64,000 nt of DNA. Source: an uncultured Thermoguttaceae bacterium (GTDB lineage Bacteria > Planctomycetota > Planctomycetia > Pirellulales > Thermoguttaceae). The notes under the pieces were generated by a model that was not told the DNA's origin, searched no databases, and saw only the letters and a list, made by a program, of their open reading frames with translations. The DNA lies in assembly GCA_937951625.1 (NCBI GenBank), contig CALFBP010000006.1, positions 1-64,000 of the forward strand. The letters are read 5' to 3'. This document shows, one piece after another, positions 20,321-56,042 of the stretch. Positions within the stretch are counted from its first letter, which is position 1; every line of letters starts with the position of its first letter. A program made the translations under genes and the position numbers.

Positions 20321-22612
20321 ATGACCAACATGAGCACCGAGCAACCCATCGATCCTGGCCTGATCGAACAAACCAAACAGCAGATCCGCGCCCTGTACGC
20401 GGAAATCGCTCAATTGGCTAGGAGCGACATCTCGCCCGAGGAGTTTTACGCCGAGATGTTGCCGCGGGTAATATCGGCGCTTGCGGCGGTCGGCGGGGTG
20501 GTTTGGGCCAAGCAGCCCCAGGGGCAGCTCGCCCTGCAATATCAGATCAATTTGCAGGAATCGCGACTCGGTGAAAAAAGCGAGGAAGAACAGGTCCGCC
20601 ATGGCCGGTTGCTTCAGAAGGTGATGAGTACGGGCGAGGGGTTGCTGGTGCCCCCGCGCTCCGGAGCGGGCGATTCCGACCAGGCCGCCAATCCCACAGA
20701 TTGGCTTCTAGTGCTTGGCCCGTTGAAGACCGAGTTGGAAGTGGTCGGCGTGGTGGAAATCTTCCAGCGAAGCGAAGCGGGGCCGGCCATCCAGCGCGGC
20801 TACCTGCGGTTCCTGCTGGAAGTCTGCGCCCTGGCCAGTGAATTCCTCAATAGCCGCCAGTTGCGGCATTTTTCCGACCGCCAAAGCCTGTGGACGCAAC
20901 TGGAGGAATTCACCCGCTTGGTTCATGCCAGCCTCAACCCTCGGGAAACGGCCTACACCATTGCCAACGAGGGCCGCCGCCTGATCGAGTGCGATCGGGT
21001 AAGCGTGGCGATCCGCAAGGGGGACCGCTGCTACATCGAGGCGGTCAGCGGCCAGGACATGGTCGACAAGCGATCGAACACGGTGCGGCTTCTGAGCCGG
21101 TTGGCGACCGTGGTGGCGGCCAGCGAGGAGCCAATGTGGTACAGCGGCGACACGACGGACATGGCCCCTCAAATCGAGGAAGCCGTGCAAGAGTACGTCG
21201 ACGAGTCGCACACGAAAATGATCGCTGTGCTGCCGCTGAAGCGGCCGGTGCTGATCGAGAAGGAAAAAGAACGGCCGGACGAACCGGACGATGCCCCGAA
21301 GCCAATTGCCGCGCTGATCGTCGAACAGATTGAAGACAGTCGCATTTCGCAAAAGATGCTTTCTCGCGTGGACGTGGTCGCCCAACACAGCGCGGCGGCG
21401 CTGGCCAACGCCTTGGAACACGAAAATGTGTTCCTCATGCCGTTATGGCGAGCGTTGGGAAAAAGCCGGGTGATCGTAGAAGCACGGAATCTGCCCAAGA
21501 CCGTGTTGGCCGCAGTGGCGGTTGTCGCGTTGGTGGTGGCCATGGCGGTCGTTCCCGCTGACTTCCGCCTCCACGCCAAGGGCACGCTGGAACCGGTCCT
21601 GCGAAGGGATGTGTTCGCCGGCATCGACGGGGACCGGGTGACCGAGGTGCTCGTCGAACACGGGGATGTCGTGAAGCGGGACCAGGTCCTTGCCCGAATG
21701 GTCAACTATAAACTCAGCGAAGAGATCACCACGGTTCGGGGCAATGTGGCCACGACCACGGACCAGATGGAACGGTTGCAGCGGCAATTGACCTTGACCC
21801 GCCAGTTGGCCCCGGAGGAGCAGACACGGCTGGCGGGCGAGATCATGGAGAAGCGTGCGGCGCTGGAGGCCTTGCGGAGCAGCCTCCGCATCTATCAGAG
21901 CATGGAGAAGGAACTCGAGGTCCGCAGCCCCGACGATGGCGTCGTCATCACTTGGGACGTGCGCAATCGCCTCTACATGCGGCCCGTGCAGCGAGGTCAG
22001 GTGCTGATGCGGATTGCCCAGCCGGACGGCCCCTGGCAACTGGAACTTCAAATGTCGGAAGATCGGATGGGGCACATCACCGCGGCCCAAAATGCCCTGC
22101 GGGCCCAGGTCCGGCAGCGGCTCCGCGAGGCGCTGCGGCGCGACGAGGGGTTCCGCAACGCGGTCCGCGACAAGCTCCGCCGAGAGTCGGCGGCCTCTGC
22201 TTCGTCCAACGCGGAAGCTTCCGACGACGCAAGCTTCGAATCGCGTTTGGAGCAGGAAATCGAGGCTACGATCGCCCAGACTCCCGCCAACCAATGGGCC
22301 AAGAAGCTCCGCGAGGTGTCGGGCGAAACCATAGAGGATCGGCTCCGCGTTTCCTACATCCTAGCCACGGATCCGGCGACGACGCGGTACGGATATATCG
22401 AGGACATGCACTTGACGGCTGAAGTCCGCGGCGAGGAAGGCAACACGGTGTTGATCAAGGTGGCGATCGACAAGGACGAGTTGCGGCCAGAGCACATTCG
22501 ACCCGGGGCGGGCGTGACCGCCAAGGTGGAATGCGGTCGCCGAGCGATTGGTTATGTTTGGTTCCATGACCTGCTGGCCTGGTTCCGCAAAATGTGGTTC
22601 CGCTGGTTCTAG
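20321..22612 (+). CDS. GAF-GAF-TM-HlyD fusion protein
   Basis: The 763-residue product joins a cytoplasmic sensor half to a periplasmic adaptor half. Residues about 20-190 and 195-375 look like two GAF domains. One membrane helix follows (about 396-414, VLAAVAVVALVVAMAVVP), then a lipoyl/biotinyl-like half-motif (FAGIDGDRVTEVLVEHGDVV), a coiled-coil hairpin, the second half-motif (LEVRSPDDGVVI), a helical insert rich in Arg/Glu and a beta-barrel end. HlyD proteins normally lack N-terminal sensor domains. ATG 20321 is chosen because the frame upstream to 20150 reads as non-coding; no strong ribosome-binding site is visible. It heads a locus with an HlyD gene and a PqqD-M50-HlyD gene and probably forms one complex with them. 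Confidence 0.75.
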   Translation: MTNMSTEQPIDPGLIEQTKQQIRALYAEIAQLARSDISPEEFYAEMLPRVISALAAVGGVVWAKQPQGQLALQYQINLQESRLGEKSEEEQVRHGRLLQKVMSTGEGLLVPPRSGAGDSDQAANPTDWLLVLGPLKTELEVVGVVEIFQRSEAGPAIQRGYLRFLLEVCALASEFLNSRQLRHFSDRQSLWTQLEEFTRLVHASLNPRETAYTIANEGRRLIECDRVSVAIRKGDRCYIEAVSGQDMVDKRSNTVRLLSRLATVVAASEEPMWYSGDTTDMAPQIEEAVQEYVDESHTKMIAVLPLKRPVLIEKEKERPDEPDDAPKPIAALIVEQIEDSRISQKMLSRVDVVAQHSAAALANALEHENVFLMPLWRALGKSRVIVEARNLPKTVLAAVAVVALVVAMAVVPADFRLHAKGTLEPVLRRDVFAGIDGDRVTEVLVEHGDVVKRDQVLARMVNYKLSEEITTVRGNVATTTDQMERLQRQLTLTRQLAPEEQTRLAGEIMEKRAALEALRSSLRIYQSMEKELEVRSPDDGVVITWDVRNRLYMRPVQRGQVLMRIAQPDGPWQLELQMSEDRMGHITAAQNALRAQVRQRLREALRRDEGFRNAVRDKLRRESAASASSNAEASDDASFESRLEQEIEATIAQTPANQWAKKLREVSGETIEDRLRVSYILATDPATTRYGYIEDMHLTAEVRGEEGNTVLIKVAIDKDELRPEHIRPGAGVTAKVECGRRAIGYVWFHDLLAWFRKMWFRWF

Positions 22613-22752
22613 TTGCCCCCTGGTTGCTGGGGAGGCGAGATGCCCAACGGGAGAACAAACAGGACTTGGCTCGCCGGAACAGAAATTCTTAGGGGGCTGG
22701 CAGCCCGAGGTTGGGAAACGATCGGGCAGAATAGAGTAGAGGTTTCGCAACG

Positions 22753-23694
22753 ATGCGCGTGTTGACCATGAGCTGGGCCGCGGTGGCGGCGGCGATCGCG
22801 GCAGGGGCAATGGGGTTGTTGGCCTCGGGGGCAACTGCGAGCGGACAGGATCCCCCCGGCGTTTCAGATGCCAACGACCCGAGCGTCATCCACGACTGCT
22901 TGATCACGCCCATCAAGCTCATCCCGGTTCCCGCGGAGGAGATGGGCAGGCTTGTCGAGATCAAGGTTCGGGAAAACCAGTACGTAAAAAAAGGCGAAGT
23001 GCTCGCCCAGATCGACGACCGCAAGGCCCAGGCGGCTTTGAACGTCGCGCAGCACAAGTTGGCGGCCGCGGAAAAAGAGGCCGGTAACAAGATCAGTGTG
23101 GATTATGCCAAGGCCAAGAACCTGGTGGCGCGCGCCGCCTACGACAAAGGCACCGAGGCCAACGATCGCGTGCCGGGCACGACGCCCGCCATCGAATTGT
23201 TGAAACTCAAGCTCGAGGTCGTGGCCTCGAAACTGGAGACGGACCACGCCGAGTACCAGTTGGAGATCGCCGCCACGAACGTGGGCGTGCGCCGGGCCGA
23301 ACTCGAGGCGGCCAAGCTGGACGTGGAGCGGCTGAAGATCGTCGCGCCCTGGGATGGGCAGATCGTCAAGCAGGAGCGGGAAGAAGGCGAGTGGGTCAAG
23401 CCCGGTGATGCCGTCTTCCAACTGGTGCAGATGGATCAGTTGCGCATCGAGGCCTTCGTGGATGGTTCCCGACTTTCTCCAGCCGATGTGGACAAGCGAC
23501 CCGTGAGCGTCAAGGTGACGCCCGCCCCCGGCCAGGAGGCCACGGTCCAAGGGCAGATCACCTACGTCAGCCCCTTGGTCGAGGCGGGAAATCGGTTTCT
23601 CGTGAAGGTCGATGTGGCCAACCGCCGCCAGGGCGAGCATTGGCTGCTTCGACCGGGGATGAAGGCGGAAATGACGATCCACTTGAGAAGGTAG
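22753..23694 (+). CDS. HlyD-family periplasmic adaptor
   Basis: The 313-residue protein is a membrane-fusion-type adaptor: a signal peptide to about residue 30, the first lipoyl half (AEEMGRLVEIKVRENQYVKKGEVLAQID), a long alpha-hairpin (about 80-190), the second half (LKIVAPWDGQIVKQEREEGEWVKPGD) and a beta-barrel with the conserved LLRPGMKAEMTIHL end. It acts in the periplasm. GAGG lies about ten bases before ATG 22753. It sits between two other HlyD-domain genes, 140 bases after the first and 177 before the third, same strand. No outer-membrane channel or ABC/RND pump is present nearby. Confidence 0.83.
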   Translation: MRVLTMSWAAVAAAIAAGAMGLLASGATASGQDPPGVSDANDPSVIHDCLITPIKLIPVPAEEMGRLVEIKVRENQYVKKGEVLAQIDDRKAQAALNVAQHKLAAAEKEAGNKISVDYAKAKNLVARAAYDKGTEANDRVPGTTPAIELLKLKLEVVASKLETDHAEYQLEIAATNVGVRRAELEAAKLDVERLKIVAPWDGQIVKQEREEGEWVKPGDAVFQLVQMDQLRIEAFVDGSRLSPADVDKRPVSVKVTPAPGQEATVQGQITYVSPLVEAGNRFLVKVDVANRRQGEHWLLRPGMKAEMTIHLRR

Positions 23695-23871
23695 TATGCC
23701 AGAGCCGTGCCTTGACCTGAAAACCGCACCTCGTCCTCCGCGAGCCAGGTCGGCTTTCCACCTCACCGAACCGGCTGTTGTGAGTCGTGCGGTTGGTCGG
23801 AGCTTGGCGGCCGGGGCTTTTGGCCCCGTGGAGGCCAAGTTCTTTGTGACGCTTTCCCTTGGTTTGCCGCC

Positions 23872-26115
23872 ATGGTGACTCTAGCCGACAGCCTGCTCTC
23901 CAGTTCCGCCCGCAAGCTGCGGATCCGCGTCCGTCCCGACCTCACGGCGCGCAAGCAGATTTACCAGGGAAAGACCTATTGGGTGGTCAAAGACCCGGTG
24001 GGCTTGCATTACTTCCGTTTCCAGGAAGAGGAGTACGCCATCCTCAACATGCTCGATGGCGAGATCAGCCTCGACGAAATCAAGGAACGGTTCGAGGCCG
24101 AGTTTCCCCCGCAAAAGATCACCCTGGACGAAATTCAACAATTCCTGGGCATGTTGCACCGCAGCGGACTGATTCTGGCGGGGGTCCAGGGACAGGGAAG
24201 CCAGTTGCTCAAACGCCGCAGCGAACGGCGCCGCCGCGAATGGCTCAACCTGGTAACCAACATCCTTTGCATCCGATTCAAGGGAATCGATCCGGAGCGG
24301 TTCCTCAACTGGCTTTATCCCAAGGTACGCTGGTTTTTCACGCCAGTCGCCGTAGGGATTGTGCTTTGCATGATGCTGGCGGCGCTGTTGCTGGTGGCCA
24401 CCCAATTCGACACCTTCCGCGCCAAGCTGCCCACGTTCCACCAATTCTTCACGCCGTCGAACTGGCTGCTCTTGGCGGCGACCTTGGCCTTTACCAAAGT
24501 GTTGCATGAATTCGGCCACGGTCTTTCGTGCAAGCATTTCGGCGGCGAGTGCCATGAAATGGGCGTGATGCTTTTGGTGCTGACCCCCTGCCTATACTGC
24601 AATGTCTCCGACTCGTGGATGCTGCCGAGCAAATGGCAGCGGGCGGCCATCGGCGCGGCGGGCATGTACGTCGAAGCGGTGCTGGCCTCGGTGGCCACGT
24701 TTCTCTGGTGGTTTAGCGAGCCGGGGCTGTTGAACAGCCTTTGCTTGAACATCATGTTCATTTGCAGCGTCAGCACGATCGTGTTCAACGGCAATCCGCT
24801 GTTGCGTTACGACGGCTACTACATCCTGGCCGATCTGGTCGAGATCCCCAACCTGCGCCAAAAGGCGACCAAGATCCTGGGCCAGAAAATGGGGCAATGG
24901 TTTTTGGGCCTGGAGCCGACCGAGGACCCCTTCCTGCCCAAACGCAACCAGATATTCTTCGCGCTCTATTCCGTCGCCGCCGCCTGCTATCGCTGGCTGG
25001 TGGTCTTCTCGATCCTGCTGTTCCTCTACAAGCTGGGCAAGCCGTATCGGCTGGAAATCGTCGGCCAAATGTTTGCGGCATTTGCCTTGGGCGGGATGAT
25101 CTTTCAGCCCATTTATCAGGTCTCCAAGTTCCTTTCCGTGCCCGGGAGACTCGACAAAGTGAAAAAACCACGAATGTATGCCACTGCGGCGGGAATCCTG
25201 CTGTTGCTGGCCGGCGTGTTCCTGATTCCCTTGCCTTACCACGTGATGGCCACGTTTGAGATCGAGCCGCACAAGGCCGCGTCGATTTATGTCGAGGTGC
25301 CTGGCAAGCTCAAACAAGTCAAAGTCGAACCCGGCCAACGCGTGGCCAAGGACGAAGTCCTCGCCGTCTTGGAAAACCCGGACCTGGATATCCGGCTGGT
25401 TGACGTGCGGGGCACGCGGGACCAGTTGAAGGCCCAGCTCGAAACCCTCCAGCGGCAACGCTTCAAGCAGTCGCAGGCCGCCGCGGCCATTCCCGAAATC
25501 CTCGACGCCATCCGCGCCAAGGAAGAACAGATTCAACAGAAGGAAGAGGAACGCAAGCAACTCGTCCTCCGCGCCCCGCGCGACGGAGTGGTTTTCCCTC
25601 CCCCTTGGCAACAGCGCAATGAAGACCCGGAGGAAGTGCTGCCGACTTGGTCGGGCATCCCTTTGGATCCGAAAAACGAAGGCGCTTTACTGCAAGATGG
25701 CACGCTGTTGTGTAAGGTGGGCGATCCCGGCCTCTTGGAAGCCATCTTGGTGATCGACCAGGCGGACGTTGGGCTGGTGCGGGTGGGACAGAAAGTGGAC
25801 CTCAAGTTCGACCAGCTCCCCCACGACGTGTTTCATGGGATAATCGACGAAGTTTCCCAGCAGAACTTGCGTGTGGCCTCCAAGCGGCTGTCGAACAAGG
25901 GTGGCGGCGAGGTCGCCACGAAGACGGACCCGTCGGGCGTGGAGCGGCCTGTGACACCCTCCTACCAGGCCCGGGTCCCTCTCCAAGATCCCGATGGCAT
26001 TCTGCGTTTGGGACTCCGCGGCCAAGCCAAGATTCACATGGACCGGGCAAACTGGCAAACGATCGCGGCGCGGGTGTGGAGATTGATTACGCAGACATTC
26101 CACTTCCGGCTCTAA
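23872..26115 (+). CDS. PqqD/RRE-like, M50 protease and HlyD fusion
   Basis: This 747-residue protein has three parts. Residues about 15-105 resemble PqqD, the fold also used as the RiPP recognition element (WWVKDPVG-type strand, EYAILNMLDGEISLDEI). Next is a multi-pass membrane M50 (site-2-protease-like) unit with the zinc motif HEFGH at 212-216 and the second conserved segment NPLLRYDGYY near 308. The C-terminal part from about 455 is an HlyD-type adaptor with both lipoyl half-motifs (IYVEVPGKLKQVKVEPGQRV, LVLRAPRDGVVF). Related proteins export or mature peptides, as in YydH-like systems. It is the third gene of the locus; a peptide substrate is expected but none is obvious nearby. The catalytic residues appear intact. 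Confidence 0.82.
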   Translation: MVTLADSLLSSSARKLRIRVRPDLTARKQIYQGKTYWVVKDPVGLHYFRFQEEEYAILNMLDGEISLDEIKERFEAEFPPQKITLDEIQQFLGMLHRSGLILAGVQGQGSQLLKRRSERRRREWLNLVTNILCIRFKGIDPERFLNWLYPKVRWFFTPVAVGIVLCMMLAALLLVATQFDTFRAKLPTFHQFFTPSNWLLLAATLAFTKVLHEFGHGLSCKHFGGECHEMGVMLLVLTPCLYCNVSDSWMLPSKWQRAAIGAAGMYVEAVLASVATFLWWFSEPGLLNSLCLNIMFICSVSTIVFNGNPLLRYDGYYILADLVEIPNLRQKATKILGQKMGQWFLGLEPTEDPFLPKRNQIFFALYSVAAACYRWLVVFSILLFLYKLGKPYRLEIVGQMFAAFALGGMIFQPIYQVSKFLSVPGRLDKVKKPRMYATAAGILLLLAGVFLIPLPYHVMATFEIEPHKAASIYVEVPGKLKQVKVEPGQRVAKDEVLAVLENPDLDIRLVDVRGTRDQLKAQLETLQRQRFKQSQAAAAIPEILDAIRAKEEQIQQKEEERKQLVLRAPRDGVVFPPPWQQRNEDPEEVLPTWSGIPLDPKNEGALLQDGTLLCKVGDPGLLEAILVIDQADVGLVRVGQKVDLKFDQLPHDVFHGIIDEVSQQNLRVASKRLSNKGGGEVATKTDPSGVERPVTPSYQARVPLQDPDGILRLGLRGQAKIHMDRANWQTIAARVWRLITQTFHFRL

Positions 26116-26710: not shown

Positions 26711-29467
26711 ATGTGCTTTTTCGCATCGTTGTTGATTTGCGTCATCACCGATGCTGAGCCGGGCTCGCTCATTGGTGGTTTGCAGCCCGGGCCGTGGTAC
26801 GAGGGATTCGAAGGGCCTGAGGTCAGTTGGCGGAGCGTGGGCGGCAACGCGCAATTCACGATCGAGATTCATCAGCGGGTCCGTGACGAGGCCCACACGG
26901 GCAGAGGCTGTGAGAGGGTGCGTTTGCTGGCAGGCAACGGCAGCGAGGTTTTTCTCGCCCATCACGTCGGACGAGCCAAGGTCATCTCCGACTTGCTGCC
27001 CACGGTTTGGATCAAAGCCGACCGGCCCGGGATTCAGTTTTCCGCCCGCGTCGTCCTCCCCAAGAGCCTGCACCCGCAAACCCGACAATCGCTTTCAGTC
27101 GTCGTCTCGGGCACGAGCTACTCGACCGTGGGGCGGTGGCAACAGCTCCGCATCGAAGACATACCGCGACTGTTGGCGCGAGAAGTTCGCGTGCTTCGGG
27201 CCCAATATGGACCGGACGTGGATCCTCGCGACGCCTATCTCGACCAAGTGTTGCTGAATATCTATGGCGGGCCAGGGACCACCAACGTTTGGATCGACGA
27301 TCTCGATCTGGCTGGCTATGTGCCTTGCCCCCAGCCCGAGGCCCTCGTCGCTGAATCTGCCCGCGGCAAAAGTGCCTGGGTCTCGGTCGCGCCGATCGAA
27401 GCGGGTTCGCGGGCGGGAGAGACGAACGCCGCGATGGAAGATCGGCCAACCCGCGGCCGAGTCAAACTTTCTGGCTCCGTGCTGTTGATCGACGACCGGC
27501 CCATTCTGCCACGCATCCTTGAATACCGGGGGGAACCGCTGGCCCTGGTGCGACAGTTGCGATTCAACGGCGTTTGGTTGTCCGAAGCCCCAGCACCAGC
27601 GATTCAGGAGGAGGCCAAACGCCTGGGACTTTGGTTGATTATGCCGCCACCTCGGGGGCCGCAGTCCGACACTCCCGACGGATTGCAAGCCCCACGCGCT
27701 GTGATCGGCGCCGAGTACGACAGCGTGCTCGCATGGGACCTTGGCCGTAACTTGGGAGCAAGCGAGACCGCCGCGACCCGGCAGTGGGCCGAACAGGTCC
27801 GCATGGCCGATCGGCGTCATCCGGGTCGGCCGGTGGTTTGTGGCCCGGTGAGCGAGCTAAAAGCGTATGGCCGTGCTGCCGACATCCTCTTGGCCAGCCG
27901 CGCCCCGCTGGCCAGCAGCCTGGAATTGAACGACTACGGTACGTGGCTCCGCGAACAGCTCCAGTTGACGCGACCGGGCGTGCCCTTTTGGACCACAATT
28001 CAAACACAGCCGTCGCAGACCCTCTGCGAGCAGTGGGAAGGCCTGGGGAAAGGCCCTTTCCCCACGACTTTTTCCGGCGATCAGATTCAACTGGTTGTGT
28101 TCACCGCCCTTTGGGCTGGAGCGCGCGGGTTGGTATTCGAGTCGTTCTCGCCGCTGAGCCGAACCGACGCCGACACGCGAGCCCGCGCCACCGCCCTGGA
28201 GCTCGTTAACCTGCAATTGGAAATCGCCGAACCCTGGATGGCGATCGGCTCCCTCATGGCCACGGTCCCCGCCATTGAACCAGCGAAGGGAATCACCGCC
28301 GCCGTGTATCAGGCGGAGCACGGACGCCTGCTCGTGCCGCTTTGGTCCGCGCCGCTTGCGCAGTATGTGACGGGCCAGCCGGGCGGGAAGAGCGTGACGT
28401 TCGTGGTGCCCGGCGTTCCGGAATCGTACAACGCCTACCAACTGGGGCCGGGCGGACTCCGCCCGTTGCGTCACAAACGGCAGACGGGCGGGGTGCGGAT
28501 CGTGATCGACGAGATCGATCTCGCATCGATGGTCCTCCTCACCGAAAACCCGCTGCTCGTCACCGCCATGACGCGCCGCGTGAATCAGGCGAGCCGGCGC
28601 TGGGCGGAATTGCAACGGGAAATGGCCGCGACGAAATCTCACACGGTGACACATATCTTGAGTCAATTGCCCCAACCAACGCGTGTGGCCAACGAAACCG
28701 AACTGCTCGCCGCGGCGCAGAAAGCCTTGGCCCAGTGCGACGCGCTGCTCGCATCGCGGGACGATGCTGGGGCCTACGTCGAGGCGTTGCGGGCATTGCG
28801 AGGGCTTCGCCTTGTGGAGCGTGCCCGATGGGAGGCTGCCCTGCCCCCGATCCAATCACCTGTTTCCAGTCCCGGCGCGGTCGCCTTCCCCACGCTTCCC
28901 TTACACGTGGGCCTCATGCAGCGCGCCACGACGTTTGCCTCGGGAGTCAATTTGCTCGCCGGGGGCGACTTCGAGGACTTCGACGCCATGTCGCAGGCCG
29001 GCTGGCGACACTTCCAACATCCGCAAACTGCCGTGACCTGTTCCGCGGAGCTATCGCCGACCGCGGCGCGGGGAGGCCAACGCGGCTTGCGACTGGCCGC
29101 GCAGCCAATCGATCCTCAGGCCCCGCCCCTATGGCTCGAATCCCCGCCCGTGTGGATCACTACTCCGCCACTGGCCGTGCCCGCCGGCCAGAACCTTTTG
29201 ATCCATGGCTGGGTCCACGTTCCCCAGCCTATCGCGGCCAGCGTCGATGGATTGCTCGTCGTCGATTCGCTTGGCGGCGAGGCGCTGGCCCATCGGGTCC
29301 GCGGCACGTCCGGCTGGCAGGAATTCGGGCTCTACCGCGTTGCTCCGCGGTCCGGTACGCTGACGGTGACCTTTGCCCTCACCGGCTTGGGCGAGGCATG
29401 GATCGACGACGTTACCATCCAGCCTCTCGGCCCCTCGCCACCTCCGAGCCAATCGGCGTCTCCGTAA
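26711..29467 (+). CDS. Large secreted protein with CBM-like ends
   Basis: The 918-residue product is not assigned to a named family. It starts with a short hydrophobic signal-like stretch (MCFFASLLICVITDAEPG). Residues about 25-200 are beta-rich and end IWVD-type (TTNVWIDDLDLAGYV), typical of a carbohydrate-binding sandwich. The middle (about 260-600) has barrel-like strands (VDDRPILPRILEYRGEPLAL, LRFNGVWLSEAP, IMPPPRGP, FTALWAGARGLVFESF) recalling glycoside-hydrolase-like folds. A helical stretch and a second sandwich follow (NLLAGGDFEDFD... EAWIDDVTIQPL). Catalytic residues could not be assigned. A TATAAG element lies at 26645-26650. A short overlapping frame starting at 26673 could be an upstream ORF. 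It precedes truB by 72 bases. Confidence 0.65.
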   Translation: MCFFASLLICVITDAEPGSLIGGLQPGPWYEGFEGPEVSWRSVGGNAQFTIEIHQRVRDEAHTGRGCERVRLLAGNGSEVFLAHHVGRAKVISDLLPTVWIKADRPGIQFSARVVLPKSLHPQTRQSLSVVVSGTSYSTVGRWQQLRIEDIPRLLAREVRVLRAQYGPDVDPRDAYLDQVLLNIYGGPGTTNVWIDDLDLAGYVPCPQPEALVAESARGKSAWVSVAPIEAGSRAGETNAAMEDRPTRGRVKLSGSVLLIDDRPILPRILEYRGEPLALVRQLRFNGVWLSEAPAPAIQEEAKRLGLWLIMPPPRGPQSDTPDGLQAPRAVIGAEYDSVLAWDLGRNLGASETAATRQWAEQVRMADRRHPGRPVVCGPVSELKAYGRAADILLASRAPLASSLELNDYGTWLREQLQLTRPGVPFWTTIQTQPSQTLCEQWEGLGKGPFPTTFSGDQIQLVVFTALWAGARGLVFESFSPLSRTDADTRARATALELVNLQLEIAEPWMAIGSLMATVPAIEPAKGITAAVYQAEHGRLLVPLWSAPLAQYVTGQPGGKSVTFVVPGVPESYNAYQLGPGGLRPLRHKRQTGGVRIVIDEIDLASMVLLTENPLLVTAMTRRVNQASRRWAELQREMAATKSHTVTHILSQLPQPTRVANETELLAAAQKALAQCDALLASRDDAGAYVEALRALRGLRLVERARWEAALPPIQSPVSSPGAVAFPTLPLHVGLMQRATTFASGVNLLAGGDFEDFDAMSQAGWRHFQHPQTAVTCSAELSPTAARGGQRGLRLAAQPIDPQAPPLWLESPPVWITTPPLAVPAGQNLLIHGWVHVPQPIAASVDGLLVVDSLGGEALAHRVRGTSGWQEFGLYRVAPRSGTLTVTFALTGLGEAWIDDVTIQPLGPSPPPSQSASP

Positions 29468-49488: not shown

Positions 49489-49790
49489 TGGAAGGGCTCC
49501 TTGCAGCGAAAAGTCTAAGGTCCGGCAGAATCCAGCGCCGCTACTCGTTTTCTATCTTGCCGTGAGAGGAAGGGCAAGGTCTTGGCGCGCCAGCCCTTCT
49601 AGGGAGGGGGTCGTCAGGAAAGCTTGGTTCCCCTATGCTTGAAGCCGGAACTTGCCGGGAGGGCGGAGCGTCTAAGGGATGTACTTGGGTCGGCAACGAG
49701 CTTCGGCCGGCCAAGATTGCGGTCGCCGGTTCAGGGCGAGGCTTTACCTTCCCGTGTTCTGCTTCTCAGAAAGTCAAGGAGTTGGCTGCC
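49489..49790. other. Divergent promoter region
   Basis: This 302-base gap between two divergent genes has no gene. The plus-strand frame of the next gene remains open back to 49635, but the residues before Met 49791 are not protein-like. AAGGAG near 49775-49780 serves the start at 49791. Confidence 0.4.
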
Positions 49791-52700
49791 ATGAATAGGG
49801 CCCGATTGGTGGCGTGTCTGATGCTAGCAGGAGTGGTTCTGATGGGAATTTCCGGCTCGGGTCCAGCGGCGCCTAAGTCCGAAAGCGAAACGCGGGAGCG
49901 GCTCCGAAAGACATTTCAGGACGGTAATTTCAAGGACGCCTACGAGGGCCTCCGCGAGCTGGCTTTGAATCCCAATGCCGACCCACGTCAGGTGGGCGAC
50001 GACTTGCAACTCGCCATCCAGGCCCTCCAGCGGCTCAATCGGGTGAACGAGATCGACGCCTTCCGCGAGGCCGTCATCGCGGCGCACCCAACTAATTGGC
50101 GGCTCCTCTGGACCGCGGCCCAAACCTACTTAGAGGTGCAGCATCAGGGATTCATCATTGCCGGGAAGTTCGAGCGCGGCCATCACCGCGGTGGCGGCCA
50201 AGTGGCCAATGCTATGGAGCGGGATCGGGTGCGGGCCTTGCAGCTCATGGTTCAAGCCTTACCCTTGGCCCAAAAAGACGACGACCGCGCCGCGGCTGCC
50301 GATTTCATGCTGGCCTTGGCGGGAATGTGGCTCGACAGCCGTGGCGCCCGGGAAGCGTGGCGTTTGCAATACCTTACCGACCTGACGGTCCTGCCCGACT
50401 ACGAACCCGGCTGGGGATATTACCCGCAGACCCGCGGGGCCCCGGTCGATGACAACGGCAATCCCATCTTCCACGCCGTCCCGAAGCGGTTCGAAGACGC
50501 CAAGTCCGACGGCGAGCGGTGGCGGTGGTGCTTGGCGCAGGCCGCAGAGATCAATCCCAAGCTGGCCGACGCGGTGCGGATGCAGTTCGCGGATTTCCTC
50601 CGCGGCCAGTTCGGCGTGGAGACCATGGCCGAGTACGGCTGGTTCTTCGGCCGCGGTGCGATCGACGATTCGCAGGAGAATCAGAGCGGGACCTACGCCC
50701 TGCACACGCTGGGCGAAGACGAAACCATCGCTAGGCTGGCAACCGGCATCAAGCGGTTCAAACTGCCTGAGGAGTTCAACTTCATCAAGATTTACCAACA
50801 GGTGGCGGAAACGCCCGAGGGTGGGCTGCGGCTTCGCGCCTTGGAACAACTGGCCGAGATTTTTGAGAATCGGCGGCAATACCCCCGGGCGGCAGAGTAC
50901 TGGAAGAAGTGCGTCGAGCTAGCCAGTTCCGGCGAACGCCCCCTTCCCATGCTCAAGCGGTTCGCTAGACGCCAATTCGGCCCGCGTCCACCGGTAGCCG
51001 GGGCCGACACGGTGGCGAACTACCGCGAACGGCTGCGGCAGATCGAGGGTAATTGGGGCCGGTTTGAGCCGGTCATGACCCAGCCGGCAGGTAAAGGGGC
51101 GACCGTCGAATATCGTTTTCGCAACGGCAAGTCGGTGGAGTTCGTAGCCCATGAAATCTTGGCCGATAAGCTTCTGGAGGACGTGAAAAGCTATATCAAG
51201 TCCCGGCCCAGGCAGCTCAATTGGGAGAACATCAACGTCGGCGATCTCGGCTTCCGATTGGTCGAAAAGGACCAGCGACGCTATCTCGGCCCGCAGGTCG
51301 CCGCGTGGACCATGCAATTAGAGCCACGCGAGAAGCACTTCGACAAGCGGGTGACAGTCGCCACGCCGCTTCAGAAGCCGGGGGCCTATTTGCTTACCGC
51401 CAAGATGCGCGACGGCAACACGAGCTACATCGTGCTTTGGGTCGCCGACACGGCCATCGCCAAGAAGCCGCTCGACGGCAAATCGTGGTATTTCGTGGCC
51501 GACGCCATCACTGGCAAGCCGATCGCCAAGGCCAACGTCGAGTTCTTCGGCTATCGTGTCGAACATCGCGACAACCGGCAATTCCAGATTCAGGTCAAGC
51601 AATTTGCCGAACATAGCGACGCCGACGGCCAGGTGCTCCTCGATCCGAAAGACCAGCCGCAAGATTTCCATTGGATCGTGACGGCGCGCACGCCGGAGGG
51701 CCGATTCGCGTATCTGGGCTTCACCGGCGTGTGGTACGGCCGCGTCCACGACGCCGAATATCACCAAGTCAAGGTCTTCACGATCACGGACCGGCCGGTC
51801 TACCGGCCCGGCCAGAAGGTGCATTTCAAGTTCTGGGTCCGCCAAGCCAAATACGACCAGGAGGACACCTCCGATTTCGCCCTCCGGTCGTTCGCCGTAG
51901 AAATCCACAATCCTAAGGGCGAAAAGGTGTTTGAAAAGCAGTTCACTTCCGATGCTTACGGCGGCATCGAGGGCGAGTTCGACCTGCCGGCCGACGCCAC
52001 GCTCGGCCAATATGGCCTGTCGATCGTCAATCACGGCGGCAGTAGCTTCCGTGTCGAGGAGTACAAAAAGCCCGAGTTCGAGGTCGCCGTCGACGCTCCC
52101 AAAGAGCCAGTCATGCTCGGCGAGAAGATCACGGCCACAATCACGGCTAAATACTACTTCGGCTCGCCGGTGACCAAGGCCAAGGTCAAATACAAAGTGA
52201 CGCGGACCGCGCACAGCGAGCGATGGTACCCGGTGGCCCCCTGGGATTGGCTCTACGAGCCTGGCTATTGGTGGTTCGCCTACGATTACGATTGGTATCC
52301 CGGCTGGCGCGTCTGGGGCTGCCCGCGACCTTGGCCGTTCTGGTGGCCCCGGGCCTCGCAGCCGCCCGAGCTCGTGGCCGACCGTGAGGTGGAGATCGGT
52401 CCGGACGGCACGGTCAAGGTCGAGATCGACACCGCGGTGGCCAAGGCCCTGCATCCCGACCAAGACCATCAGTATTCCATCACGGCGGAAGTGGTCGATC
52501 AGTCGCGGCGGACCATCGTTGGCTCGGGCAGCGTGCTCGTGGCCCGCAAACCGTTCACGGTCTACGCCTGGGTCGACCGCGGCTATTATCGGTCGGGCGA
52601 TACGATCCAGGCCCACTTTTCTGCGCGGACGCTCGATGGCAAGCCGGTCCAAGGGCCTGGCAAGCTCACCTTGCTGGCCATTTCCTATCAGGACGGCAAG

Positions 52701-55700
52701 CCGGTGGAAAAGGCCGTCCATACACAGGAACTCGCCACGAACGAAGAAGGCTTGGCCCACGCCCAACTCGTGGCCGCCAAGCCGGGGCAGTACCGCATTT
52801 CCTATAAGCTGACCGACGCCAACGAGCACGTCATCGAAGGCGGTTACGTTCTGACGGTCATCGGCACGGCCTTCGACGGCTCCGATTACCGCTTTAACGC
52901 CGTGGAACTCATTCCCGACAAACGCGAGTACCAACCCGGCGACAAGGTGAAGCTGATGATCAACACGAACCGTACCGGTGGGACGGTACTGTTGTTCGCG
53001 AGGCCCTCCAACGGCGTGTACCTGCCGCCGAAGGTCGTGCGACTGGAGGGTAAAAGCACGGTCGAAGAAATCGCCGTCGTCAAGAGGGACATGCCCAATT
53101 TCTTCGTCGAGGCCCTCTCCATCGCCGACGGCAAGGTCCACACCGAAACCAAGGAAATCGTGGTGCCGCCGGAGAAACGGGTTTTGTCGGTCGAGATCGC
53201 GCCTTCGTCGCCGACCTACCGGCCGGGCCAGAAGGCCGAGGTGAAACTCAAGCTCACTGATTTCTACGGCAACCCCTTTGTGGGCTCGACCGTGGTGGCC
53301 ATTTACGACAAGTCGGTCGAGTACATCTCTGGCGGCACGAACGTGCCTGAGATTAAGGCCTTCTTCTGGAAATGGCGTCGCCACCACCACCCGCAGACCG
53401 AAGCGAGCCTCGACCGCGGCTCGGGGAACCTGATTCCACCGAATACGATCGGCATGAACGACATCGGGCTGTTCGGGGCCACGGCCGTGGATGAAGTGGC
53501 CACCAACGGAGCGAAGGCATTGGCTTTGAGCGGCCACGCCGGAGGCATGGGCGGGTTCGGCGCTCGCGACCGGGTGCGCGCCGGGATGATGATGGAGCGG
53601 AGGTCAGCCGGAAGAGCCATCGAGGCCGACGCAATGCTCGCTCCTGCGGCGCCGATGGGGGCCGCTGCCCCCGGCATGATGGAAACCGCCGAACTGGCCA
53701 AAGCGGATGCGGCTGGCGAGCAAGAGAAAGGGCCCGCACTCGTCCAGCCCACCGTGCGCAAGGAATTCGCCGACACCGCCCTCTGGGTCGGCGCCTTGGA
53801 AACCGCTCCCGACGGCACCGCCCAGGTCTCGCTCAACATGCCCGAAAACCTGACCACCTGGCGGATCAAGGTTTGGGGCCTTGGCCACGGCACCAAGGTG
53901 GGCGAAGGACAGACCGACGTGGTCACGCGCAAAGACCTCATCGTCCGCCTCCAGGCCCCGCGGTTTTTCGTGCAGAAGGACGAAGTCGTCCTTTCGGCCA
54001 ACGTCCATAACTACCTGAAGACTGCCAAGCGCGTGCAGGTTGCTTTGGAACTAGAAGGCAAGACGCTGGAGGCGATGGACCAGACGCTCCGCACGGTGGA
54101 GATCGCCCCCAACGGCGAGGCCCGCGTCGATTGGCGCGTCAAGGTCCTCGACGAGGGCGAGGCCGTCGTGCGCATGAAGGCCCTCACCGATGAAGAATCC
54201 GACGCCATGGAACAGAGGTTCCCCTGCTACGTCCACGGGATGTTGAAGATGGAGGCCCGGTCCGGCGTCATCCGGCCGAACCAGCCCGGCGGAAAGATGG
54301 AATTCACTGTTCCGGCCGAGCGGCGGCCCAAGCAAACCCGCTTGGAGATTCGCTACTCGCCTACGCTCGCCGGGGCCATGGTCGATGCCTTGCCCTATCT
54401 GGTCGACTATCCCTATGGCTGCACCGAGCAGACCCTCAGCCGCTTCCTGCCCACGGTGATCACGCAAAAGATCCTTCTCGACATGGGTCTGGACCTCGAT
54501 GAGATTCAGAAGAAACGCACCAACCTCAACGCCCAGGAGATCGGCGACGACGCCCAACGGGCCAAGCAGTGGAAACGCCTGGATCGCAACCCGGTGTTCG
54601 ATCGGAAAGAAGTCGATCGTATGGTCAAAGAGGGCGTCAAGCGGCTCACCGAGATGCAGCTCTCGGACGGCGGTTGGGGTTGGTTCTCTGGCTACGGCGA
54701 GTACTCGTCGCCGCACACCACGGCCTATGTGGTCCACGGCCTCCAGATCGCCCAGCACAACGATGTCGCACTGGTTCCCGGGATGCTCGAACGGGGCGTC
54801 GAATGGCTCAAACGCTACCAAGAGGCTGAAGTGCAAAAGATCAAGAACGGCCTCAAGCAGCCCAAGGTCCGACCGTGGAAGGACCAGGCCGACAACCTGG
54901 ATGCCTTCGTCTACATGGTCCTTGTCGATGCTGGCGTGCGAAACGCCGAGATGCACGAATTCCTCTTCCGCGACCGCACGAAACTGTCGGTGTACGGCAT
55001 GGCGCTATTTGGTCTTGCTGCCGAGAAATTGGGCGACAAGGACAAGCTGGCCATGATCCTCCAAAATATCGGACAGTACGTGGTTCAAGACGATGAGAAC
55101 CAGACTGCTTGGCTGAACCTGCCCGAAGGCAATTTTTGGTGGTTCTGGTATGGCAGCGAGATCGAGGCCGAGGCCTATTACCTCAAGCTGCTGGCGCGGA
55201 CCGATCCCAAGGGCGAATTGGCCCCGCGTTTGGTCAAGTATCTCTTGAACAACCGCAAGCACGCCACCTATTGGAACTCGACGCGCGACACGGCCCTGGT
55301 GATCGAGGCCCTTGCCGACTTCCTCCGCGCCAGCGGCGAGGACAAGCCCGAGATGACCGTCGAGGTCTGGTTCGACGGCCAATTGCAGAAAGCGGTCGAG
55401 GTCACGCCCGCCACGCTGTTTACTTTCGACAACAAGTTAGTTCTCGAGGGCGAGCAGGTCCAAGCCGGCCCGCACACGATCGAACTCCGCCGCAAGGGCC
55501 GCGGTCCGCTGTATTTCAACGGGTATCTGACTAACTTCACGCTTGAAGACATGATCACCAGGGCCGGCCTGGAGATCAAGGTCGAGCGCAAGTACTACCG
55601 CCTCAAAAAGCTCGATAAGACGACCAAGGTCGCCGGTTCGCGAGGCCAAGTCGTCGATCAGCGGGTGGAGAAGTATGAACGTGAGGAGTTGGCGAATCTC

Positions 55701-56042
55701 GCGGAACTGAAAAGCGGCGAGTTGGTGGAGATCGAATTAGAGATCGCCAGCAAGAACGACTACGAGTACCTGGTCTTCGAGGACATGAAGCCAGCCGGTT
55801 TCGAGCCGGTGGACTTGCAAAGCGGCTACAACGGCAACGCCCTGGGGGCGTACATGGAATTCCGCGACAATCGCGTGGTGTTCTTCGTCACGCGACTGGC
55901 CCGGGGCAAACACAGCGTGGCCTACCGCATGAGGGCCGAAACGCCTGGCAAGTTCAGCGCCCTGCCGACCAAGGCCTGGGCGATGTATGCCCCGGAATTG
56001 AAGGCCAACTCGGACGAGATCAAGCTGCGGGTAACGGATTGA
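49791..56042 (+). CDS. Alpha-2-macroglobulin family protein
   Basis: This 2083-residue secreted protein is a bacterial alpha-2-macroglobulin, a protease trap. A signal peptide (MNRARLVACLMLAGVVLMGI) leads a helical N-terminal part, a set of MG domains, an A2M core domain beginning near residue 1320 (FADTALWVGALET... ENLTTWRIKVWGLG), and the thioester YPYGCTEQTLSRF with Cys1544 and Gln1547, so the covalent trap is intact. The following helical thioester domain and a receptor-like end are present. Two oddities: an 11-Trp insert at about 812-862, and a Gly/Met/Ala-rich stretch at about 1244-1320, where the bait region should be. No pbpC gene is next to it. ATG 49791 follows AAGGAG by about nine bases. 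Confidence 0.92.
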   Translation: MNRARLVACLMLAGVVLMGISGSGPAAPKSESETRERLRKTFQDGNFKDAYEGLRELALNPNADPRQVGDDLQLAIQALQRLNRVNEIDAFREAVIAAHPTNWRLLWTAAQTYLEVQHQGFIIAGKFERGHHRGGGQVANAMERDRVRALQLMVQALPLAQKDDDRAAAADFMLALAGMWLDSRGAREAWRLQYLTDLTVLPDYEPGWGYYPQTRGAPVDDNGNPIFHAVPKRFEDAKSDGERWRWCLAQAAEINPKLADAVRMQFADFLRGQFGVETMAEYGWFFGRGAIDDSQENQSGTYALHTLGEDETIARLATGIKRFKLPEEFNFIKIYQQVAETPEGGLRLRALEQLAEIFENRRQYPRAAEYWKKCVELASSGERPLPMLKRFARRQFGPRPPVAGADTVANYRERLRQIEGNWGRFEPVMTQPAGKGATVEYRFRNGKSVEFVAHEILADKLLEDVKSYIKSRPRQLNWENINVGDLGFRLVEKDQRRYLGPQVAAWTMQLEPREKHFDKRVTVATPLQKPGAYLLTAKMRDGNTSYIVLWVADTAIAKKPLDGKSWYFVADAITGKPIAKANVEFFGYRVEHRDNRQFQIQVKQFAEHSDADGQVLLDPKDQPQDFHWIVTARTPEGRFAYLGFTGVWYGRVHDAEYHQVKVFTITDRPVYRPGQKVHFKFWVRQAKYDQEDTSDFALRSFAVEIHNPKGEKVFEKQFTSDAYGGIEGEFDLPADATLGQYGLSIVNHGGSSFRVEEYKKPEFEVAVDAPKEPVMLGEKITATITAKYYFGSPVTKAKVKYKVTRTAHSERWYPVAPWDWLYEPGYWWFAYDYDWYPGWRVWGCPRPWPFWWPRASQPPELVADREVEIGPDGTVKVEIDTAVAKALHPDQDHQYSITAEVVDQSRRTIVGSGSVLVARKPFTVYAWVDRGYYRSGDTIQAHFSARTLDGKPVQGPGKLTLLAISYQDGKPVEKAVHTQELATNEEGLAHAQLVAAKPGQYRISYKLTDANEHVIEGGYVLTVIGTAFDGSDYRFNAVELIPDKREYQPGDKVKLMINTNRTGGTVLLFARPSNGVYLPPKVVRLEGKSTVEEIAVVKRDMPNFFVEALSIADGKVHTETKEIVVPPEKRVLSVEIAPSSPTYRPGQKAEVKLKLTDFYGNPFVGSTVVAIYDKSVEYISGGTNVPEIKAFFWKWRRHHHPQTEASLDRGSGNLIPPNTIGMNDIGLFGATAVDEVATNGAKALALSGHAGGMGGFGARDRVRAGMMMERRSAGRAIEADAMLAPAAPMGAAAPGMMETAELAKADAAGEQEKGPALVQPTVRKEFADTALWVGALETAPDGTAQVSLNMPENLTTWRIKVWGLGHGTKVGEGQTDVVTRKDLIVRLQAPRFFVQKDEVVLSANVHNYLKTAKRVQVALELEGKTLEAMDQTLRTVEIAPNGEARVDWRVKVLDEGEAVVRMKALTDEESDAMEQRFPCYVHGMLKMEARSGVIRPNQPGGKMEFTVPAERRPKQTRLEIRYSPTLAGAMVDALPYLVDYPYGCTEQTLSRFLPTVITQKILLDMGLDLDEIQKKRTNLNAQEIGDDAQRAKQWKRLDRNPVFDRKEVDRMVKEGVKRLTEMQLSDGGWGWFSGYGEYSSPHTTAYVVHGLQIAQHNDVALVPGMLERGVEWLKRYQEAEVQKIKNGLKQPKVRPWKDQADNLDAFVYMVLVDAGVRNAEMHEFLFRDRTKLSVYGMALFGLAAEKLGDKDKLAMILQNIGQYVVQDDENQTAWLNLPEGNFWWFWYGSEIEAEAYYLKLLARTDPKGELAPRLVKYLLNNRKHATYWNSTRDTALVIEALADFLRASGEDKPEMTVEVWFDGQLQKAVEVTPATLFTFDNKLVLEGEQVQAGPHTIELRRKGRGPLYFNGYLTNFTLEDMITRAGLEIKVERKYYRLKKLDKTTKVAGSRGQVVDQRVEKYEREELANLAELKSGELVEIELEIASKNDYEYLVFEDMKPAGFEPVDLQSGYNGNALGAYMEFRDNRVVFFVTRLARGKHSVAYRMRAETPGKFSALPTKAWAMYAPELKANSDEIKLRVTD

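Follow-up and report, generated by a model that had tools for sequence, protein, structure and literature searches.

Three adjoining genes on the forward strand of a planctomycete contig each encode a protein with an HlyD-type adaptor, which in one of them is fused behind an intramembrane protease, and the question raised by this locus is what such a set of proteins handles. The locus lies within the window, a stretch of 64,000 nucleotides (G000:C6:1-64000) from an uncultured Thermoguttaceae bacterium whose genome comprises 4.59 Mb in 105 contigs, and a search with the third gene returns named relatives from Pirellulales and other Planctomycetota. Kamneva, Poudel and Ward (2015; PMC4452313) described genes for GAF/HlyD, HlyD, and M50/HlyD proteins in the vicinity of secondary SecA_DEAD genes, the phyla concerned being Planctomycetes, Verrucomicrobia, Proteobacteria, and a few more; they proposed a type I-like role, called the broader role 'completely unknown', gave no cargo, and did not mention PqqD. 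The planctomycete surface motif, traced in PMC8567305 to Studholme (2004), is regarded there as a probable novel export signal and is present on 8 of the 10 longest Tuwongella immobilis proteins; HlyD, SecA, and M50 do not occur in that paper. Among open-licence PMC papers, the term LEPR-XLL appears in two, one of them PMC10868602, and none was found that links the motif with the module or assigns a machine to the motif. This analysis joins two orphan observations, a tag without a machine (PMC8567305) and a module without a cargo (PMC4452313), and reads the module, with a probability of roughly 0.78, as an export and leader-processing machine serving LEPR-tagged surface proteins, often giant ones. 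The module and the motif were each known before; what is new is the likely cargo of the module.

Gene order and domain content

The features of the locus are as follows.

20321..22612, forward strand: gene 1, 763 aa, with a cytosolic GAF pair, a membrane helix, and an HlyD adaptor, in this order
20432..20848, forward strand: first GAF domain of gene 1 (residues 38-176), a weak match to GAF_3 (25.7 bits, below the Pfam cut-off of 27)
20939..21403, forward strand: second GAF domain of gene 1 (residues 207-361; GAF, 23.4 bits against a cut-off of 22.4)
21491..21556, forward strand: predicted membrane helix of gene 1 (about residues 391-412), a single hydrophobic run in the sequence
21557..22609, forward strand: HlyD/lipoyl adaptor of gene 1 (from about residue 413; HlyD_3 31.4 bits, Biotin_lipoyl_2 30.4 bits)
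22753..23694, forward strand: gene 2, a short HlyD adaptor of 313 aa (HlyD_3 73 bits, HlyD_D23 59 bits)
23872..26115, forward strand: gene 3, 747 aa, a PqqD/RRE-like domain, M50 intramembrane protease, and HlyD adaptor, from Pfam profiles and a structural model
23914..24186, forward strand: PqqD/RRE-like domain of gene 3 (about residues 15-105), from an AlphaFold2 model compared with RRE domains
24505..24519, forward strand: HEFGH zinc site of gene 3 (H212-H216), with H212, E213, and H216 invariant in 43 sequences
24811..24813, forward strand: D314 of gene 3, in LRYDGYY, invariant in 43 aligned sequences
25234..26112, forward strand: HlyD adaptor of gene 3 (about residues 455-747; HlyD_D23 40.8 bits)

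An earlier sequence-only reading had described three consecutive genes that each carry an HlyD adaptor, the first with two GAF domains and one membrane helix, and this description holds: all three open reading frames lie at the coordinates it gave, an HlyD match is found in each, and gene 1 has one GAF match below and one above the respective cut-off ahead of one hydrophobic run. The start of gene 2 resembles a signal peptide (hydropathy 2.12), and its product is, to judge from the sequence, likely periplasmic.

Gene 3 is the most elaborate of the three. Its Pfam match to PqqD (residues 38-101) scores 20.0 bits, below the cut-off of 23.4, and structure comparison strengthens the assignment. 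The AlphaFold2 model of residues 1-118 (pLDDT 85.6) gives as its best Foldseek rows TbiB1 with leader peptide, TigE, and PqqD at a probability of 1.00, with a best E value of only 1.3e-3 and none under 0.001. Among the matches listed by VIA-align, TbiB1 reaches a Z of 10.1 and PqqD 8.1; 5doo_A (Z 8.6) and 8hkr_B (Z 8.1), whose names suggest no relation, stand level with PqqD and lower than TbiB1. Lasso-peptide RRE domains whose structures were determined together with the leader are among the best rows. The N-terminal domain thus appears to have an RRE-type fold, at a modest level of match, so that the PqqD-like domain proposed from sequence, a proposal that was to fall if no fold match to PqqD existed, is borne out by structure despite its profile score.

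The protease part matches Peptidase_M50 at 27.6 bits (cut-off 27.2) and retains HEFGH; with H212, E213, H216, and D314 all invariant, the intact protease claimed from the letters is upheld. By analogy with the M50 family, we take D314 to be the probable third zinc ligand. The nearest curated family is daptide_HExxH (NF041824, 186.6 bits against a cut-off of 300), followed by epipeptide YydH/LiaK (NF058609, 48.6 bits against 225). Gene 3 resembles these in being a multi-pass M50 protease, but it falls far below both cut-offs, has no accompanying peptide gene, and carries an HlyD domain fused behind the protease. For this C-terminal part, the best Foldseek rows are MacA/MexA-type adaptors. The full-length model has a pTM of 0.53 with a poor stretch at residues 234-246. 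Four cysteines just after HEFGH (C220, C227, C240, and C243; window positions 24529-24600) are invariant in 43 orthologous sequences and may form a second metal site or a disulfide pair. Elsewhere, the window encodes a 2135-aa bacterial alpha-2-macroglobulin (49635-56042). The neighbouring gene at 26711-29467 (918 aa, with a signal-peptide-like start) was considered as a cargo and set aside, having no Pfam or NCBIfam match and no N-terminal motif.

Conservation of the module and its SecA and TolC partners

Among 80 related loci that were fetched, 48 extend at least 4.2 kb upstream, and the order gene 1-gene 2-gene 3 is kept in 46 of these, so the arrangement is not a chance one. The three genes therefore travel together, as the sequence-only reading had expected of related loci, and homologues of gene 3 are not usually found alone, which it had named as the outcome that would count against it. 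In a broader set of 40 regions, made up of the window and 39 more, gene 3 has a GAF/HlyD-like gene close by in 29, a class assigned from relative scores since the gene 1 and gene 3 profiles converged through their shared HlyD part. The host genome itself holds a sister copy of the module (C1:28099-33265) at 44% and 33% identity.

In this sister copy, a gene of the OEP/TolC type (72.9 bits) adjoins the GAF gene (L041 8097-15930, G000:C1), and OEP genes are found in 9 of the 40 module regions, sister copy included, one of the nine being weak. Among the flanking genes scanned, the window copy has no TolC-type channel, SecA, or tagged gene alongside, and a Pfam scan of 14 genes from the flanks and the window recognized no ABC exporter. 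The earlier statement that the locus lacks an outer-membrane channel is correct for the window copy and does not extend to all of its relatives, in view of the OEP genes in some of their regions.

The window genes are of the same three protein types as the module of Kamneva et al. (2015), and the genome likewise carries a secondary SecA. The window copy differs from the neighbourhoods described there in having no adjoining SecA, although the same paper also describes SecA genes elsewhere in the genome (PMC4452313). The second SecA_DEAD gene of the host lies on another contig (C11). It is short and retains the GEGKT and DEAD motifs; its Pfam domains are DEAD, preprotein cross-linking, and P-loop, beyond which there is only a weak helicase match. 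This gene is solitary, and by eye an SdrD-B-repeat-like open reading frame lies some 6 kb from it (L042 3-2243 and 7998-9929, G000:C11). SecA genes occur in 11 of the 40 module regions. Across 294 genomes of the phylum, at least two SecA_DEAD matches are found in 60 and a gene 3 relative (at an E value of 1e-10 or lower, with up to three candidates per genome scored) in 67, with both in 47 (Fisher p 1.2e-26; within families p 1.3e-4). The 20 of 67 gene 3 genomes that have no second SecA count against the pathway reading.

Co-occurrence with LEPR-tagged proteins

The profiles LEPR-XLL (NF012209) and Planc_extracel (PF07595) describe N-terminal motifs of surface proteins, which are here assigned as a cargo signal. 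With up to 28 candidates per genome scored, NF012209 matches in 31 of the 294 genomes. A gene 3 relative is present in 30 of these 31 genomes vs 37 of the 263 others (Fisher p 2.9e-21), and the association persists within 11 informative families (p 9.7e-6). In each of the 30 genomes, the motif was read near the first possible start of at least one protein. The one genome outside this pattern, G165, lacks a gene 3 relative, and its LEPR match, 387 codons into an internal, antisense-like frame, is spurious. As a control, the common short surface tag PEP-CTERM was compared, for which 31 of 109 genomes hold gene 3 (p 0.053). The older planctomycete profile PF07595 was rejected as the tag, its association being weak (gene 3 in 11 of 16 genomes, p 7e-5) and not significant within families.

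Counting against the cargo reading, 37 of the 67 gene 3 genomes have no NF012209 match. In two such genomes, G121 and G205, frames of more than 2400 aa that begin with a LEPR motif lie just downstream of the second module and were missed by the profile. Genome G220 holds 21 LEPR-XLL matches, one of them within a reading frame of 10,951 aa. Physical linkage is seen for a minority of tagged genes: of the 94 LEPR hits, eight have a gene 3 relative at a distance of 16 kb or less, against an expectation of 1.07, and among open reading frames of at least 400 aa in 39 wide loci, the motif is N-terminal in six and occurs in none of 1023 internal windows. No enrichment of tagged frames beside the modules is seen among the 80 loci closest to the window (3 vs 1.4 expected).

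The association recurs on plasmids, where 12 regions, chosen by the author from 79 matching records, were opened. In 10 of the 12, the operon of the gene 3 relative is immediately preceded by a giant gene in the same orientation. Nine of these genes are 38.8, 26.5, 31.8, 13.0, 12.1, 9.9, 13.4, 7.0, and 48.7 kb in length, and the tenth is an unannotated frame of at least 3974 aa (L163); of the remaining two regions, L208 has just a 1.5-kb neighbour and the other record is cut at its start. Three of the giants are annotated 'LEPR-XLL domain-containing protein'. The motif [LIM]E[PSA]R stands at 8 of the 9 N-termini read next to gene 3 relatives (LEPRFLL, IEPRILL, LEPRVLL, MEPRVLL, LEPRVVY, LEPRMLF, LESRQLF, and LEARYMF), a count that excludes the giants of L163 and L166, whose true starts lie beyond the sequence reached, and the motif is absent from the N-terminus of the 1.5-kb gene of L208. 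A search with the start of one giant identified two further records, from Sinorhizobium and Ensifer, each with a matching start, presumably of another giant, upstream of the gene 3 relative on the same strand and about 29 kb away. The 12 regions with their gene 3 relatives hold TolC in eight, SecA in four, and often a short HlyD gene too. Three of the four plasmid SecA genes are annotated under other names, the SecA_DEAD genes at L161 17029-19053, L162 16213-18129, and L164 16139-18124 being called prepilin peptidase or DEAD/DEAH helicase.

Other features of the plasmid regions deserve mention. A small DUF3467 gene lies between giant and module in three of them (L162 11735-12055, L164 11863-12144, and L167 11663-11959), and its product may be a cytosolic partner, such as a chaperone. 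The protease/adaptor is present at 99% identity or more in 27 plasmid records, including records from Escherichia and Citrobacter (L206; L210, a Citrobacter freundii plasmid), and in the one such region examined a 13.4-kb Ig-like gene with the start LESRQLF precedes it. The RSP proteins of IncHI plasmids were considered as relatives and set aside; passages in PMC6764697 and PMC8730810 deal with type IV export and do not mention TolC or HlyD.

A published case lends the link independent support. In Methylobacterium extorquens AM1, the module corresponds to META1p2399-2402, of which 2402 is the GAF gene (PMC4452313), and a strain-specific island of 62 kb, bordered by META1_2402 and META1_2415, is labelled by META1_2412, a 47.5-kb gene for a protein of 15,831 residues, in an earlier genome paper (PMC2680597). 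By the published borders, the GAF gene alone of the AM1 module falls inside the island.

The tagged proteins have no Sec-like hydrophobic stretch ahead of the motif. By hydropathy, which served here in place of a trained predictor of signal peptides, the highest mean over 15 residues before the motif in NF012209 proteins is 0.97, vs 2.12 at the start of gene 2. The host genome encodes at least five tagged proteins on other contigs (one NF012209 match over the cut-off, together with further motif starts), among them two subtilases, one with RTX and cadherin repeats, a C92 amidase, a CARDB protein, and a 1638-aa cyclophilin/SdrD-B/Ig protein. For the RTX subtilase, hydropathy before the motif reaches 1.82 if the first possible start codon is used, and some candidates therefore fit imperfectly. 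Two LESR-tagged proteins (L044 3922-7434 and L246 688-5601) carry a cyclophilin domain near the N-terminus, ahead of Ig/cadherin-like or SdrD-B repeats, seemingly an exported prolyl isomerase.

Proposed pathway and rival explanations

In the mechanism that we propose, the PqqD/RRE domain of gene 3 would capture a LEPR or LEDR leader in the cytosol, as the fold and the association suggest, and the secondary, shortened SecA would push the unfolded chain across the inner membrane at a complex of the gene 3 and gene 1 proteins. From there, the HlyD parts of these two proteins and the periplasmic gene 2 product would form the path to a TolC-type channel. Leader cleavage would fall to the M50 site, to judge from its intact residues and from its nearest families being leader proteases, and the GAF pair of gene 1 might gate the machine or report its state, which is a guess. 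Binding, cleavage, energy source, route, and gating are thus all inferred. The module would resemble type I secretion in its HlyD adaptors, the TolC of many relatives, and giant repeat-rich products, but differ from it in the N-terminal tag and in the fusion of protease and RRE to an adaptor. That the complete pathway exists as drawn, a separate Gram-negative secretion route running from LEPR leader through RRE, protease, adaptor, and short SecA to TolC, we judge to be slightly better than an even bet.

Several other explanations were weighed. The sequence-only reading had favoured a leader-peptide system, and in its strict form this would be a factory of the RiPP type, in which the module matures and exports a small ribosomal peptide in the manner of daptides or epipeptides, with the GAF domains as sensors. 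The nearest curated protease families (daptide_HExxH and YydH/LiaK) and the RRE-type fold of gene 3 favour such a factory, and the pairing of RRE with protease is indeed the part of that reading that stands, given the fold, the intact site, and the leader proteases nearest to it. The small-peptide cargo does not: among 30 small open reading frames strictly between the genes, just one was matched in related loci, by a single weak match, no modification enzyme was recognized among the flanking genes scanned, and the partner that does co-occur is a large LEPR surface protein, often giant. A small-peptide product thus has only a slim chance of being correct. Somewhat greater, although still small, is the chance that LEPR proteins cross the inner membrane by other means and that the module just cuts or anchors them. 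A protease and an RRE need no part in translocation, and SecA and OEP genes are found in just 11 and 9 of the 40 module regions, respectively; against this stand the three HlyD adaptors, the TolC and SecA genes in 8 and 4 of the 12 plasmid regions, and the want of a Sec-like hydrophobic stretch ahead of the motif.

The 2015 proposal taken alone, a type I-like exporter of untagged cargo in which SecA is the ATPase and the M50 protein the pore (PMC4452313), gains from the SecA co-occurrence reproduced in 294 genomes and from the GEGKT and DEAD motifs retained by the second SecA of the host. It leaves unexplained both the LEPR association and the PqqD-like domain, which that paper does not mention, and we consider it very improbable in this form. 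It would also be conceivable that LEPR proteins and the module co-occur without any functional connection, for instance because genomes are large or because the two were transferred jointly, both being patchy and clade-bound and tagged genes not being enriched beside the module in the window's own order. The within-family association (p 9.7e-6), the PEP-CTERM control (p 0.053), and the recurrence of the giant-gene neighbourhood on plasmids of another phylum speak against a shared history of this kind, to which we give hardly any credence.

If the module does serve LEPR-tagged proteins, the surface motif of planctomycetes recognized in 2004 would gain its missing export route, and the module described in 2015 would gain a cargo. 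Proteins of these loci whose current annotation is efflux adaptor, site-2 protease, or (wrongly) prepilin peptidase would share a common function, and the export of proteins of about 2,300 to 16,000 residues without a Sec-like signal would become testable by the deletion of one gene. The result would be a pathway built for some of the largest proteins that bacteria make.
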